Below, in pieces: positions 19,022 through 34,219 of a stretch of DNA of 38,322 nt. Origin of the DNA: Candidatus Avelusimicrobium vaccinum (GTDB lineage: Bacteria > Elusimicrobiota > Elusimicrobia > Elusimicrobiales > Elusimicrobiaceae). Position 1 is the first letter of the stretch. Each line of letters starts with the position of its first letter. A program made the translations under genes and the position numbers. Where the stretch lies: positions 1 to 38,322 of the forward strand of contig CADBIY010000013.1 in NCBI GenBank assembly GCA_902794895.1, written 5' to 3'. Under the pieces are notes generated by a model. It saw nothing but the letters and a program-made list of their open reading frames with translations. It was not told the origin of the DNA and did not search any database.

Positions 19022-19495
19022 TTACATTACAGATTGGGCCCAATCGGCTAATTGCTGGGTTGATTCGTTAGCGGAAAATCTTCGGCCGTCTTTTAATTTT
19101 GCTTTTGGGGCCAGCCGTTGCAGATTTTTAGCGGAATCTCCTAAACTGCTTCCACCCGAAGTTGCGAACGGAATGACGGTTTGACCGTTCCAGGGGCATT
19201 TTTCCATAAAAGTATCAATAATACTTGGTTGGCGGTACCACCAAATAGGAAACCCTACAAAAATAGTTTCATATGGGGTTATGTCCGGTAGTTTGGTAAT
19301 TTCCGGACGGCAGTTTAAATCGCGCATTTCTACAGAACTGCGGCTACTGCGATCCGTCCAATTCAAGTCAGCAGTCGTATAAGGAACTTTCGGACAAATC
19401 TCAAAAAGATCTGCCCCAATAGCCTGTGCGAACCGTTGGGCGAGTTTTTTGGTGATCCCGCTGGCACTAAAATACGCTACTAAAATTTTTTTCAT
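19022..19495 (-). CDS. Flavodoxin (cytoplasmic)
   Basis: A 157-residue flavodoxin of the Flavodoxin_4 type. The FMN phosphate-loop region is 'V-A-Y-F-S-A-S-G-I-T-K-K-L-A' (residues 6-19), and 'F-V-G-F-P-I-W-W-Y-R-Q-P' is the 50s/60s-loop analogue stacking on the isoalloxazine ring. 'F-A-T-S-G-G-S-S-L-G' forms the 90s loop. It has no signal peptide, unlike the second flavodoxin at 22396. AGGGAGGCG just upstream on the minus strand is a strong ribosome site. It is divergent from the iron-sulfur flavoprotein operon, and the shared 131-bp region holds a TTGACG/TACAAT promoter with a long 19-bp spacer. It is probably a low-potential electron carrier or quinone/electrophile reductase partner. Confidence 0.88.
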   Translation of the reverse strand: MKKILVAYFSASGITKKLAQRFAQAIGADLFEICPKVPYTTADLNWTDRSSRSSVEMRDLNCRPEITKLPDITPYETIFVGFPIWWYRQPSIIDTFMEKCPWNGQTVIPFATSGGSSLGDSAKNLQRLAPKAKLKDGRRFSANESTQQLADWAQSVM

Positions 19496-19522
19496 ACAAA
19501 CGCCTCCCTAGTCAGTATTAGT

Positions 19523-19553
19523 ATTGTATCAATTATTGGTAGTAATCCGTCAA
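19523..19553 (-). promoter_or_regulatory. Flavodoxin promoter with an unusual 19-bp spacer
   Basis: On the minus strand TTGACG (19553-19548) and TACAAT (19528-19523) are separated by 19 bp and the -10 is preceded by TGA, as in the two MerR-type promoters at 31428 and 34393. The spacer has only short 4-bp dyad arms (ATTA/TAAT), so MerR control is uncertain here. Confidence 0.4.
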
Positions 19554-19626
19554 GGTATCCATGTGCAACTATCCTAGAAAAATTTTTGCTAAAATAGTTT
19601 TCATAAATATATAAGGGGAGTTTTAA

Positions 19627-20271
19627 ATGATGAAAATTATTTTCATTAACGCCAGCCCGCGCAAAAACTGCAATACCGCACAACTGCTTCAGCAGGCCCA
19701 ACAAGGAGCGCAAGCGGCTGGTGCCCAAACCGAATATGTAAATTTATTTGATCTAAAATTTACCGGATGCCGCAGCTGTTTGGCATGCAAGCGGCAGGGA
19801 ATGCAACGCTGTAAATGCTATTGGCCGGATGATTTATCTCCATGGATTGATAAGATACTCCATGCCCAGGGGGTTATTATCGGAACCCCTGTTTATATGG
19901 GTGGTCCGACGGCTCATTTTCACGCTTTGTATGAACGGTTGGGATTTTGTGTGTTGTCCTATGATGACCGTAGCAGTTACCTGGACCGGAAAGTAAACGT
20001 GGGGCTCATTTATACCATGAATGCGCCGCAATCGTATTATGAAGCGGCTATGCGCCCGGCCTTTGTGCCTATTGAAAACGGGCTGAAACATTTACTCAAA
20101 GGGGAAGTGTTAACATATGCCTGCTGTGATACGTTTCAGGTGCCGGATTACAGTAAATATAATATGGGTATTTTTGATCCTGTCCATAAGGCTCAAGTTC
20201 ATCAAACCCAATTTCCGCAAGATTTACAAGCTGCCTATGCCATGGGCGAAAAATTGGCAAAATTAAATTAA
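19627..20271 (+). CDS. Iron-sulfur flavoprotein / NAD(P)H-dependent FMN reductase family
   Basis: A 214-residue flavodoxin-fold protein of the NADPH-dependent FMN reductase/WrbA-like superfamily. 'I-N-A-S-P-R-K-N-C-N-T' (7-17) is the FMN phosphate loop and 'G-V-I-I-G-T-P-V-Y-M-G-G-P-T' the second flavin loop. A cysteine set C48-x2-C51-x2-C54-x7-C62 matches the compact 4Fe-4S motif of archaeal iron-sulfur flavoproteins (Isf), so it may bear both FMN and a cluster. GGGGAG before the ATG is the ribosome site; the second ATG (19630) is equally possible. It heads an operon with the metallo-hydrolase and the CDF transporter. Role: probably two-electron reduction of a small oxidant or electrophile. 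Confidence 0.85.
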   Translation: MMKIIFINASPRKNCNTAQLLQQAQQGAQAAGAQTEYVNLFDLKFTGCRSCLACKRQGMQRCKCYWPDDLSPWIDKILHAQGVIIGTPVYMGGPTAHFHALYERLGFCVLSYDDRSSYLDRKVNVGLIYTMNAPQSYYEAAMRPAFVPIENGLKHLLKGEVLTYACCDTFQVPDYSKYNMGIFDPVHKAQVHQTQFPQDLQAAYAMGEKLAKLN

Positions 20272-22192: not shown

Positions 22193-22395
22193 TTGTTTTG
22201 TTGTGTTTGCGGGAAGCAGATTTTTGTATCTTGCCGGCTAAGAAAATCTTGTTTGTAAATTGTCTATCCCTTGCAATAGGAAGTCGCATGTGTATAGCGG
22301 ACAAAAAAAGACGTAAAATGCCAAGGATATGTAGCCTGTGTGAAAGACGGACACGCAAACGAATGAGTAAATAACTATTAGAAAGGAGATCTATC

Positions 22396-23013
22396 ATGAA
22401 AAAAATACTGATTATTTTACTAACGGCATTATGTGCTATTGCTTGTAATGCCGAGCCCAAGTCCCGGGAGGCTGAAAAGGCGGCCGCTGATCATGGAAAA
22501 GTATTAGTAGTATATTTTTCCCGCACCGGCGAGCAATATAGCGTCGGCAACATTCAAGAAGGCAACACCGCCATTGTGGCTAAGATGATTGCCCAAGCAA
22601 CGGGGGGAGATTTATTTGAAATTAAACTTAAAAACGATACCTATCCAACCACGTACCGTGCCTTAACCGAAGTAGCCCAACAGGAAAAACGCGCCAATGC
22701 CCGTCCGGAAGTAGCGGATAAAGTAACTAATTTTGACGAGTACGGAACTGTCTTTATCGGGTGCCCTAACTGGTGGGGGGATTTGCCTATGGTCGTTTAC
22801 TCGTTTATGGAACAGTACAACTGGGCCGGTAAACAGGTGGCTCCGTTTGTAACACACGAAGGAAGCGGTTTATCCTCTATTCCCGCCAGCATTAAAAAAA
22901 CCACCAAAGCCGACGTATTGAGCGGATTTTCGCTGTACGGGCACGAAGCACAAAACGAACGGGAGAACGCTCAACTAAAAGTAAACGCTTGGCTTAAAAA
23001 GTTAGGGTTTTAG
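22396..23013 (+). CDS. Exported (lipoprotein-type) flavodoxin
   Basis: A 205-residue protein combining an N-terminal export signal with a flavodoxin domain. K2-K3, a hydrophobic stretch and 'A-I-A-C17-N' form a fair lipobox, so Cys17 may be lipidated; cleavage by signal peptidase I after 'C-N-A' is the alternative. The flavodoxin domain starts near residue 35 ('V-L-V-V-Y-F-S-R-T-G') and has the insertion 'E-Q-Y-S-V-G-N-I-Q-E-G-N-T' typical of gut-bacterial long-loop flavodoxins, then 'F-I-G-C-P-N-W-W-G-D-L-P' and 'T-H-E-G-S-G-L' flavin loops. AAAGGAGAT precedes the ATG. The next gene, a membrane 4Fe-4S protein, starts on the base after the stop, so the two very likely act together in electron transfer on the outer face of the inner membrane. 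Confidence 0.85.
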   Translation: MKKILIILLTALCAIACNAEPKSREAEKAAADHGKVLVVYFSRTGEQYSVGNIQEGNTAIVAKMIAQATGGDLFEIKLKNDTYPTTYRALTEVAQQEKRANARPEVADKVTNFDEYGTVFIGCPNWWGDLPMVVYSFMEQYNWAGKQVAPFVTHEGSGLSSIPASIKKTTKADVLSGFSLYGHEAQNERENAQLKVNAWLKKLGF

Positions 23014-23670
23014 ATGAAAAAAATGCTGCAACCTTTGCGGTTTTTAATACAGGCCTGCTTTATGGCGGGCCTGTTTTTGCCTTTTCTGCCGTTTGCGGAT
23101 AGTATCGGCTCCAAAATATGGATTACCATTTTGTTTTGTGGGGTGTTTTTCTGCGGGTGGATTTGCCCCTTTGGGGCGGTGCAGGACTGGATGGGGTTGA
23201 TCGCTAAAAAACTCCGCCTGCCGCGTTATAAACTCCCGCAAAAGTATCAGCAGTATATGCAGCTGTTGCGTTACGTGCTTTACGGACTAAGCACACTAAA
23301 CATAGTGTTTTATTTTCTAAACAGCCGGTTTTATTTTAGCCATAGCGTAGCGGCCGGCATGTGGGATTGGGTAAACGGATCGGTGTTGGTAGTCTTTTTG
23401 CTCACCTCGTTTTTTACGGACCGTCCCTTCTGCAACTATTTCTGTGTTCACGGGGCGGCTATGGGCGTGTGGAGTGTGCTGCGCCCCTTTGGTATCACCC
23501 GCCAAGAAAGCGCGTGCGTGCATTGCGGCTTGTGCGATAAAGCATGCCCTATGAATATTGAGGTATCCGCCACTTCGTTTGTGCGCCACCCCAGTTGTAT
23601 TAACTGCATGCAATGCGTACAGGTATGCCCGAAAAATTGCGTGCGCTATTCAATAATAAAACGCCCGTAA
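23014..23670 (+). CDS. NapH-like membrane 4Fe-4S protein (polyferredoxin)
   Basis: A 218-residue inner-membrane iron-sulfur protein of the NapH/NosR-C-terminal/CcoG-like group. It has four hydrophobic segments; paired motifs 'C-G-W-I-C-P-F-G-A-V-Q-D-W' and 'C-N-Y-F-C-V-H-G-A' are the CxxxC sites placed at membrane ends in this family. Two classical 4Fe-4S motifs follow: C168-x2-C171-x2-C174-x3-C178-P and C195-x2-C198-x2-C201-x3-C205-P. Such proteins pass electrons from quinol or cytoplasmic donors towards periplasmic reductases. Here the partner is the exported flavodoxin encoded directly upstream with no gap. No nitrate, nitrous oxide or cytochrome gene is nearby, so the terminal acceptor is unknown. 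Confidence 0.85.
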   Translation: MKKMLQPLRFLIQACFMAGLFLPFLPFADSIGSKIWITILFCGVFFCGWICPFGAVQDWMGLIAKKLRLPRYKLPQKYQQYMQLLRYVLYGLSTLNIVFYFLNSRFYFSHSVAAGMWDWVNGSVLVVFLLTSFFTDRPFCNYFCVHGAAMGVWSVLRPFGITRQESACVHCGLCDKACPMNIEVSATSFVRHPSCINCMQCVQVCPKNCVRYSIIKRP

Positions 23671-28342: not shown

Positions 28343-28906
28343 ATGAATATTTTATTTGTTAATGCATGCCCGCGGAAGGATTCCCGCACTAAACTGCTGG
28401 CAGATTATCTGTTAAGCAAATTAAAAGGCACGGTGCAGGAGCGAAATCTCAGCACAACCACGCTCTTGCCGCTAAGCGAAGAAACACTCAAACGCCGCAC
28501 CGATTTAATTGCAAAAAGGGATTTTGCAGACCCGTTGTTTGCGCCGGCTAAAGAGTTTGCCGCCGCAGATTGCCTGGTAATTGCCGCCCCGTTTTGGGAT
28601 TTATCGTTCCCGGCCTTGTTAAAACTTTACATAGAGCATATCAATATAGTGGGCGTAACTTTTGTCTACCAAGCCGACGGCAGACCGTACGGCCTGTGTA
28701 AAGCAAAAAAACTCTATTATGTAACTACTGCCGGCGGCCCGATTGTAAACGAGGCCTACAGCTATGGGTACGTGCAAGCACTTGCCAAAAATTTTTACGG
28801 TGTATCTGATACGTATTGCATCAAAGCCGAAAATTTAGATGTAGATGGCGCGGATATAGAAAATGTTTTACACCATGCTAAGCAAGAGATAGATACCTTG
28901 ATTTAA
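28343..28906 (+). CDS. NAD(P)H-dependent FMN oxidoreductase (azoreductase/MdaB-like)
   Basis: A 187-residue flavodoxin-like-fold oxidoreductase. 'V-N-A-C-P-R-K-D-S-R-T' (6-16) is the FMN phosphate loop, 'I-A-A-P-F-W-D-L-S-F-P-A-L-L-K' the flavin-ring loop seen in AzoR/NQO-type enzymes, and 'T-T-A-G-G-P' the third loop. Such proteins reduce quinones, azo compounds or other electrophiles by two-electron transfer. It begins 2 bp after cstA, with its ribosome site inside the cstA 3' end, so it depends on the cstA transcript. It is the fourth flavodoxin-fold protein in 10 kb. Confidence 0.82.
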   Translation: MNILFVNACPRKDSRTKLLADYLLSKLKGTVQERNLSTTTLLPLSEETLKRRTDLIAKRDFADPLFAPAKEFAAADCLVIAAPFWDLSFPALLKLYIEHINIVGVTFVYQADGRPYGLCKAKKLYYVTTAGGPIVNEAYSYGYVQALAKNFYGVSDTYCIKAENLDVDGADIENVLHHAKQEIDTLI

Positions 28907-32569: not shown

Positions 32570-34219
32570 TTAAAATTTGCGTGGAAGAGCAACAGTGCGG
32601 CAAGAATCAAAAATATCTAGTTTTTTGTCATACCATTTGCTGTCTACTTCCATAAGTGCCAGTAAAGAGTGTGATAAATTATCGTGGGAAAAAGTTTCTT
32701 CCGTCGCTTTTTTCTTCAAACAATCGTAGTCTATATGGCTGAATTTTTTCATTACTTCACTCATCCATACCAGCATAGGTACACTGGTTTGTTCTTTGGG
32801 AGCTATCAAATAAGGCAGACCATGCAAATAAATGCCGTTTTCTCCTAAAGATTCTCCATGATCGGATACATACAGTAGCCCGCTTTCATAAGCCGGAAAT
32901 TTTTTCAATATATCAATCACAGACGAAACAATATAGTCCGTGTACAAGATCGTATTGTCATACGTATTGATAATTTGCTCGTGGGTACAGGTCTGTATTT
33001 CTTCCGTATCACAGGTAGGCGTAAATTGCTTGAATTGGTCCGGGTATCTGCGATAATACGTTGGTCCATGACTACCAATTGTGTGCAACACAATAAAAGC
33101 GTGCCCTTTTAGATTGGTTAAAAACTGCTCTAGCCCTTCCAATAAAATTTCGTCATGGCAATACTTGCCGTCGCAAAACTGCTTGTTTGTTACGTCCATT
33201 TCTATATGGGGTACGCGCTCGCATACACCTTTGCACCCATTATCATTTTCCTTCCACAAAATTTCATACCCGGTTTGTTGCAAAAGATCTAATATATTTT
33301 CGGTGTATTTGGCTTCCGTGGGGTTAAAATCTTTGCGTGATAAGAAAGAAAAGATAGCCGGTACGGAAAACGCTGTATTGGTTCCGGCCGAGTGAACATG
33401 CCGAAAATTCACAATATCTTGTTTTTTAAGTTTAGGGTTGGTTTCATGTTCATAACCATTTAATGAAAAATTCATGGAACGGGCGGTTTCTCCTACAATA
33501 ACTACAAAAACGGTTTTCTTTTTATCCGAATACGGAACAAGCGTGGCATTTTCATCTAATTTCGTAAATGTACGTTTCATTTCATACTCTTTTTGGAAAT
33601 AACGAAAAGTGGCCCGTGTATAGTTAAGGGGATTAATAAGATGACGCACTTGGCGATTATTGCGCCCAAAGGAAGCATATTCTTTATACAAGAAAGGTAG
33701 CAGTACCAAAATGCATACTAGCAAAATCCCACACCGTTTGATTCTACCCCATACCTCGTTTTTAAACGAGTTAAAAGTAATCTTAATCCGTGCCAACCAA
33801 ATGGCAGGGAGAATGCCCAATAATATAAGCCACAATACAGAACGTACGGTAATTAAATCTTTTATTTCTCCAGGGTTGGTTTCAAATGTATTACGTATCA
33901 TGTCCGAATCAATAAATACGCCAAACTGATACATAAAATAATTGGTGGCGGCGGAAATAATAAGCAGTATTACAAGCAGCGGTTTGCCCACATACGGAAG
34001 AAGCAATAGACTAAAAAATAAATACAGTACTGTAAACAGCAGTAGCGGTATAGACAAGACAAATAAACCATTGGTAAAATTGGCAAAATCAGCATGCACC
34101 CACACAAAATGCCAGAAACTAAAGTTTAGAAACACCAAAAAATAGATGGAAACAATAGTTATTAAGTGAGTGGCTGAAAGTTCGGATCTGTTGCAGAAAT
34201 AAGAAAGTAAATTTTTCAT
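32570..34219 (-). CDS. Phosphoethanolamine transferase, EptA/MCR-like
   Basis: A 549-residue inner-membrane enzyme: five transmembrane helices in the first 180 residues, then a periplasmic sulfatase-fold domain. Catalytic features of lipid A phosphoethanolamine transferases are present: E244 in 'V-G-E-T-A-R', 'F-S-L-N-G-Y' after it, the phospho-acceptor threonine T282 in 'G-T-N-T-A-F-S-V-P', and the zinc motif 'S-D-H-G-E-S-L-G-E-N-G'. Paired cysteines ('C-K-G-V-C', 'F-C-D-G-K-Y-C', 'C-D-T-E-E-I-Q-T-C') match the disulfide pattern of EptA/MCR. It adds phosphoethanolamine from phosphatidylethanolamine to lipid A or core, lowering surface charge and affinity for cationic peptides such as polymyxin. 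Monocistronic, no clear ribosome site. Confidence 0.9.
   Translation of the reverse strand: MKNLLSYFCNRSELSATHLITIVSIYFLVFLNFSFWHFVWVHADFANFTNGLFVLSIPLLLFTVLYLFFSLLLLPYVGKPLLVILLIISAATNYFMYQFGVFIDSDMIRNTFETNPGEIKDLITVRSVLWLILLGILPAIWLARIKITFNSFKNEVWGRIKRCGILLVCILVLLPFLYKEYASFGRNNRQVRHLINPLNYTRATFRYFQKEYEMKRTFTKLDENATLVPYSDKKKTVFVVIVGETARSMNFSLNGYEHETNPKLKKQDIVNFRHVHSAGTNTAFSVPAIFSFLSRKDFNPTEAKYTENILDLLQQTGYEILWKENDNGCKGVCERVPHIEMDVTNKQFCDGKYCHDEILLEGLEQFLTNLKGHAFIVLHTIGSHGPTYYRRYPDQFKQFTPTCDTEEIQTCTHEQIINTYDNTILYTDYIVSSVIDILKKFPAYESGLLYVSDHGESLGENGIYLHGLPYLIAPKEQTSVPMLVWMSEVMKKFSHIDYDCLKKKATEETFSHDNLSHSLLALMEVDSKWYDKKLDIFDSCRTVALPRKF

Follow-up and report, generated by a model that had tools for sequence, protein, structure and literature searches.

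The window analyzed here, a 38,322-nucleotide stretch of DNA from an Elusimicrobiota gut metagenome-assembled genome (MAG) that is 98.9% complete (G000), encodes an exported flavodoxin paired with a NapH-like membrane iron-sulfur protein, and sequence comparison on balance favors the view that the pair forms a transmembrane electron-delivery unit, in which the NapH-like protein would relay cytosolic electrons to a flavodoxin that is exported and binds FMN noncovalently. The zero-gap pair had been proposed in the original prediction, and both the ORF coordinates, which are unchanged, and a Pfam scan bore it out: the frames at 22396-23013 (205 amino acids) and 23014-23670 (218 amino acids), both on the + strand, meet with 0 bases between them, the TAG of the first being followed directly by the ATG of the second. 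A Shine-Dalgarno-like AAGGAG, found by eye at 22383-22388 on the + strand, precedes the flavodoxin ATG by 7 nt, and a promoter scan 5′ of the pair gave no match on the + strand. The Pfam scan covered nine ORFs, namely the pair and seven around it, and the rest of the window was read by eye. No Nap, Nos, or cytochrome protein was found among the nine, as had been predicted, and neither NapG nor NapA is among the seven scanned neighbor proteins. Three more flavodoxin-fold proteins (Flavodoxin_4, FMN_red, and azoreductase-like) are encoded within about 5 kb of the pair, at 19022-20271 and 28343-28906.

The first protein of the pair belongs to the Flavodoxin_4 family (PF12682, 77 bits against a cut-off of 24), and its AlphaFold2 model has a confident core (mean pLDDT 88.3) behind 28 residues that mostly fall below a pLDDT of 50, as expected of a signal. 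The best folds in the PDB, 4ici, 4j8p, and 3klb, are Bacteroides Flavodoxin_4 structures, the last in complex with FMN; the window protein shares their fold and a predicted FMN site but, compared with them as solved structures, has in addition an N-terminal signal and a membrane Fe-S partner. The signal sequence (22396-22446, + strand) runs to Cys17 in an AIAC motif, with two lysines among the first six residues and a mean hydropathy of 3.23 over 10 residues, and the N-terminus, MKKILIILLTALCAIAC, precedes the first β strand (residue 37). The cytosolic flavodoxin of the window (19022-19495) starts right at this strand without any extension, and neither it nor the cytosolic paralog L025 has any signal features at all. 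Export was called with a simple hydropathy and motif script and by comparison among homologs. The Elusimicrobiota flavodoxins have a lysine-rich start, a hydrophobic core, and a conserved cysteine at residue 17, which is invariant in 5/5 aligned Elusimicrobiota copies and missing from the alphaproteobacterial ones; the latter carry cysteine-free signal peptides that end shortly before the first strand, and some other flavodoxins begin with an uncleaved-looking membrane anchor. Because the AIAC lipobox is weak (the −3 position is A or T), the cysteine is present only in Elusimicrobiota, and the alphaproteobacterial signals are free of it, export is better supported than lipidation. Of the lipobox-like signal with Cys17 noticed earlier, the export function was therefore strengthened by the two types of signal among homologs, and the lipid anchor is possible but uncertain; lipidation would likely be limited to the Elusimicrobiota copies.

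The second protein is predicted to be a four-helix membrane protein with two [4Fe-4S] clusters. It matches PF12801 (Fer4_5), the domain by which the membrane protein of flavinylated NapH-like systems is recognized, at 46.7 bits (cut-off 22), and its Fer4/Fer4_10 matches are also over cut-off; the curated NapH models match below theirs (TIGR02163, 80.9 versus 213.05 bits; NF007013, 76.2 versus 234 bits). The positive-inside pattern gives four helices with both termini inside and a long helix 2-3 loop that is also cytoplasmic. Two CxxxC and two 4Fe-4S motifs had been read from the sequence, and all of them hold: the first CxxxCP (C47, C51, and P52; 23152-23169), at the cytoplasmic end of helix 2 by topology; the second CxxxC (C140 and C144; 23431-23445), which has no following proline in the window protein; and, in the Fer4 domains, the first (C168, C171, C174, and C178; 23515-23547) and second (C195, C198, C201, and C205; 23596-23628) 4Fe-4S motifs. 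All four lie on the + strand, and 12/12 motif cysteines are invariant in 42/42 aligned relatives. From the topology, both CxxxC and both 4Fe-4S motifs would be placed on the cytoplasmic side. The AlphaFold2 model (mean pLDDT 78.6) gave convincing Foldseek matches only for the C-terminal ferredoxin region and nothing at E <0.001, with no solved structure found for the membrane part, and the sequence search returned ferredoxin domains only among the matches listed. The protein resembles NapH of periplasmic nitrate reductase in its four helices, CxxxC motifs, and two C-terminal 4Fe-4S motifs, but differs from it in falling under both curated cut-offs, in having no Nap genes adjacent, and in the lack of a UbiA match over cut-off that would speak for a quinol pool. 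Both the NapH-like protein and the cytosolic flavodoxin of the window give weak, below-cut-off matches to EFR1 family ferredoxin (NF038196), so a flavodoxin-like part and Fer4 occur together in one protein there. EFR1, however, is a single protein rather than a two-gene pair and is not known to have a membrane part.

The pairing is conserved well beyond the window. Among 37 congeneric genomes, seven, all Elusimicrobiaceae or Elusimicrobiales gut MAGs, encode a NapH-like protein, and Fer4_5 matches occur in these seven and in no other of the 37. In five of the seven, among them one (G035) in which the flavodoxin is whole and the NapH-like frame broken, the end of a complete flavodoxin directly abuts the NapH-like start; in the other two, the contig begins inside the last codons of the flavodoxin (G019) or only the end of the flavodoxin remains (G012). 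When GTDB genome contigs were scanned with an alignment of six NapH-like proteins, 131 relatives were found and 80 loci kept, 24 of which have a complete flavodoxin touching the NapH-like gene and three more of which have remnants (L041, L042, and L046). In a NapH-like tree of 73 rows (72 loci and the window), one clade of 29 rows (SH-aLRT 99) takes in all flavodoxin-touching loci, the remnants, the window, and L066. Complete touching flavodoxins are present in 25 rows of the clade, upstream in 23 and downstream in two (L052 and L053); of the remainder, L041 preserves just the final flavodoxin codons, where its contig breaks off, a 3′ remnant persists in L042 and L046, and L066 is not judgeable, its contig starting at the gene. 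The members are MAGs of Elusimicrobiota and gut Alphaproteobacteria, many of them ruminant-derived according to database records, and across the two phyla the junction stays tight, with zero gap or an overlap of a few bases. The genome search for adjacent exported flavodoxin/NapH-like pairs thus found them conserved in two phyla, and the reading survived the test of nonconservation in relatives that had been named beforehand. Chance adjacency is ruled out by this conservation together with the exchange of partners described below. In the 16 Akkermansia genomes that contain a NapH-like relative, no flavodoxin match was obtained, and the NapH-like family therefore does not require one. The genus also has exported flavodoxins with no NapH-like or DUF4405 neighbor in the stretch read (L027, L028, and L029).

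The flavodoxin partner appears to have been exchanged while the pairing held, because the NapH-adjacent flavodoxins form two separate branches and lie upstream of the NapH-like gene in some loci and downstream in others. In a flavodoxin tree that included 17 of the 25 adjacent flavodoxins, the two branches require at least two changes, and 0% of 200 bootstrap trees united the NapH-adjacent flavodoxins as one group. Each of seven alphaproteobacterial genomes that have a NapH-like relative but no intact touching pair (L060, L065, L068, L070, L071, L087, and L094) encodes a Flavodoxin_4 protein, behind a signal peptide or an N-terminal membrane anchor. At L092:1288-2313, the NapH-like gene is preceded with zero gap by the gene of an exported lipoprotein whose ferredoxin domain (Fer4_13) is of the single-cluster kind, an apparent ferredoxin counterpart in the flavodoxin's place.

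The donor might likewise be exchanged. PMC11334425 links DUF4405, a family of membrane proteins that bind heme b, to flavinylation, and DUF4405 was detected in 14 of the 37 congeneric genomes at E <0.001 (11 over cut-off). A same-strand exported flavodoxin lies just upstream of DUF4405 in 13 of these 14, the fourteenth (G018) having no flavodoxin there. The two genes are 1 to 44 nt apart in the ten loci where the script picked the DUF4405 frame and, from coordinates, 27 nt apart in L137 (locus L036); no gap figure is given for L140 and L142, where an overlapping frame was chosen instead. A second, membrane-anchored flavodoxin follows DUF4405 in nine of the 13, and CMD is encoded within ~3 kb of DUF4405, on its contig, in nine of the 13. 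Both donors are found in two genomes, and the NapH unit is damaged in each: the flavodoxin is cut at a CRISPR-like array in G012, and the NapH-like frame is broken in G035. DUF4405 was found in 0/5 genomes with an intact pair, counting G019 at its contig edge as intact, versus 13/32 without one, an avoidance that is not significant (p = 0.14), and in none of 25 alphaproteobacterial genomes with a NapH-like protein. The arrangement fits a role of the NapH-like protein and DUF4405 as exchangeable donors. In sister species (L033, L034, L036-L039, and L130-L138), DUF4405 is surrounded by genes for two exported flavodoxins and for CMD, cupin, cyclophilin-like, and DUF362 proteins that are likewise exported, in what looks like an all-exported redox operon. 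The same four kinds of exported protein recur near some relatives and are candidates for the acceptor side, and in G000 a CMD protein whose N-terminus is hydrophobic is encoded on another contig, adjoining a cytosolic flavodoxin. Our literature search found no paper on a CMD/flavodoxin/cupin/aldo-keto reductase/cyclophilin cluster.

These neighborhoods bear on an alternative that we regard as rather unlikely, namely that the flavodoxin is an extracytoplasmic quinone or xenobiotic reductase that is reduced in some other way, its adjacency to the NapH-like gene reflecting co-regulation in a stress or detoxification island. Genes for FMN_red, azoreductase-like, aldo-keto reductase, CMD, and cupin proteins are indeed abundant in the window and its relatives, and the upstream neighbors of the pair differ among relatives. 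However, the flavodoxin/NapH-like junction remains tight while the flanks vary, two flavodoxin branches fill the same place, and CMD and cupin are not constant companions, the CMD gene of G000 being on another contig.

Under the preferred reading of a transmembrane electron-delivery unit, we infer the transfer of electrons, the direction in which they flow, ferredoxin as donor, and the acceptor as follows. The NapH-like protein would span the inner membrane, with its N- and C-termini and its two 4Fe-4S clusters on the cytoplasmic side. There a soluble donor of the cytosol, in all likelihood ferredoxin in its reduced form, would feed the clusters. Electrons would then move via the CxxxC centers toward the outer face of this membrane, where the exported flavodoxin, with FMN bound without a covalent link, would be reduced. 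Reduced flavodoxin might pass electrons to an extracytoplasmic acceptor, for which the exported CMD/cupin partners of some relatives or oxidized small molecules are candidates, and in the sister species the DUF4405 protein would replace the NapH-like donor. Because both Fe-S clusters and both CxxxC motifs are predicted on the cytoplasmic side, the path of electrons to the outer FMN is left unexplained, as it is in NosR and PceC. The extracytoplasmic electron-transfer pair of the original prediction nevertheless gains support from the conserved pairing and the two types of export signal.

The flow might instead run inward, with exported enzymes oxidizing a substrate and passing electrons to the flavodoxin, the NapH-like protein, and finally cytosolic ferredoxin or NAD, although we consider this quite unlikely. 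Flavodoxins are low-potential electron donors in known cases, which counts against such a direction, and no exported dehydrogenase was recognized by eye among the recurring neighbors. The sequence does not fix the direction, and NapH-like systems with alcohol oxidases have been proposed in the accessible part of PMC8238504.

The source of the electrons was considered from the gene content of the genus. Membrane subunits of Rnf/Nqr are absent from all 37 congeneric genomes and were found in the control genomes, which rules out these complexes as the electron source. UbiA was over cut-off in none of the 37 and in 14/14 controls; sub-threshold matches occur in 15 of the 37, and not in G000. Because Rnf/Nqr are absent and no quinone synthesis was seen, ferredoxin is the probable donor. 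On the same grounds, the absence of Rnf/Nqr and of UbiA over cut-off, quinol is an unlikely one, and we judge it very unlikely that the NapH-like protein is a quinol dehydrogenase delivering quinol electrons to the flavodoxin. That idea draws on the homology to NapH, whose membrane part is proposed to oxidize quinol (PMC5928378, in the part available), but UbiA-family prenyltransferases, with 0/37 over cut-off and none at all in G000, speak against it; quinone might still be taken up from the gut. Hardly credible is the notion that the flavodoxin is not exported, its hydrophobic N-terminus being spurious or an anchor that faces the cytoplasm, since, for all the weakness of the AIAC lipobox and of signals called by script, homologs carry two unlike signal types at this place in the gene and the paralogs without a signal have no extension.

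With electron delivery to an exported flavodoxin kept as the preferred reading, the mode of FMN binding sets the pair apart from its closest known counterparts. In the accessible parts of PMC8238504 and PMC5928378, flavinylated NapH-like systems, including NosR and PceC (RdhC), are those in which ApbE attaches FMN covalently to a fused or adjacent FMN_bind domain. The present pair is like NosR and PceC (RdhC) in having a Fer4_5 membrane core with CxxxC motifs beside an extracytoplasmic FMN carrier, and unlike them, as far as those parts describe them, in that a separate flavodoxin replaces FMN_bind in a genus without ApbE or FMN_bind. PMC11334425, in the part available, describes extracytosolic flavodoxins as showing signs of flavinylation, unlike cytosolic ones, and a flavinylated Flavodoxin_4 together with a DUF4405 cytochrome and apbE. 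To this system the present flavodoxins are similar in being extracytosolic and served by a membrane donor, with DUF4405 as a neighbor in sister species of the genus; they are dissimilar, by that account, in having no strict motif and no ApbE, and in the window the donor is an Fe-S protein. The pair can thus be described as having a NosR/PceC-like way of working without the FMN_bind/ApbE partner that defines those systems, and as not being NapH by the curated cut-offs. Our search for exported, periplasmic, secreted, or lipoprotein flavodoxins found them only in PMC11334425, as far as its accessible part goes, and no paper was found on flavodoxin electron transfer in gut Elusimicrobiota; a search for DUF4405 together with flavodoxin led to PMC11334425 and two other papers.

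A noncovalent FMN is suggested by several searches. ApbE (PF02424), a gene that the original prediction had singled out to be looked for, is absent from all 37 congeneric genomes and was detected in 7/14 controls, and the flavin is therefore probably not covalently attached. FMN_bind (PF04205) is also absent from the 37 and present in control genomes. Among 29 further genomes (25 alphaproteobacterial and four Akkermansia), ApbE was found in two, both alphaproteobacterial. The strict flavinylation motif occurs in 0/30 flavodoxins, and the loose form [ST]GA[ST] in 3/30 (L026, L034, and L038), none of which is NapH-adjacent. Covalent attachment was also considered for an insert after strand 1, which sits at the position of the flavinylated Flavodoxin_4 site, and was rejected as the motif is not there; a similar strand-1 insert is present in the cytosolic paralog L025, itself without a signal.

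The prevailing view is that the flavin of extracytosolic carriers has to be covalently attached by ApbE so as not to be lost, and PMC11334425 states this for flavodoxins in particular. The present group looks like a counter-case, with conserved exported flavodoxins in a genus without detectable ApbE, and it raises the questions of how FMN is delivered to a periplasmic flavodoxin, how NapH-like electron transfer proceeds without detected quinone synthesis, and which extracellular compounds gut bacteria of this kind reduce. A broader and more tentative possibility is that quinone-less fermenting gut bacteria run ferredoxin-driven extracytoplasmic redox with noncovalent exported flavodoxins as a plug-in hub, the donor being NapH-like or DUF4405 and the carrier being a flavodoxin from one or the other branch or, in a single relative, an exported ferredoxin. 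If so, the cytosolic exchange of ferredoxin and flavodoxin would extend to the periplasm, and either FMN-loaded folding outside the cytoplasm or export of the folded holoprotein would be required. The natural swaps of donor (NapH-like/DUF4405) and carrier offer a way to approach, by comparison, the unsolved mechanism of NosR/PceC-type transfer.

Several minor observations accompany the survey. In three MAGs labeled Proteobacteria (L047, L048, and L050), the NapH-like proteins of the pair are 67-72% identical to the Elusimicrobiota copy, which may reflect either horizontal transfer or mis-binning. In two Elusimicrobiota genomes, a CRISPR-like array with repeats of ~36 nt and spacers of ~30 (L042:4700-5922 and L046:1-405) directly adjoins what is left of the flavodoxin gene, its final codons, and the gene for the NapH-like protein is intact. 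One NapH-like gene (L071:5998-6672, genome G083) has an in-frame TGA and touches an intact exported flavodoxin. Recoding of TGA in G083 was rejected since most other long ORFs on its loci have no internal TGA, and the loci scanned contain no tRNA informative on this point; the codon reads as a simple nonsense change. Finally, the window encodes at 32570-34219 a membrane protein that, by eye only, resembles a phosphoethanolamine transferase.
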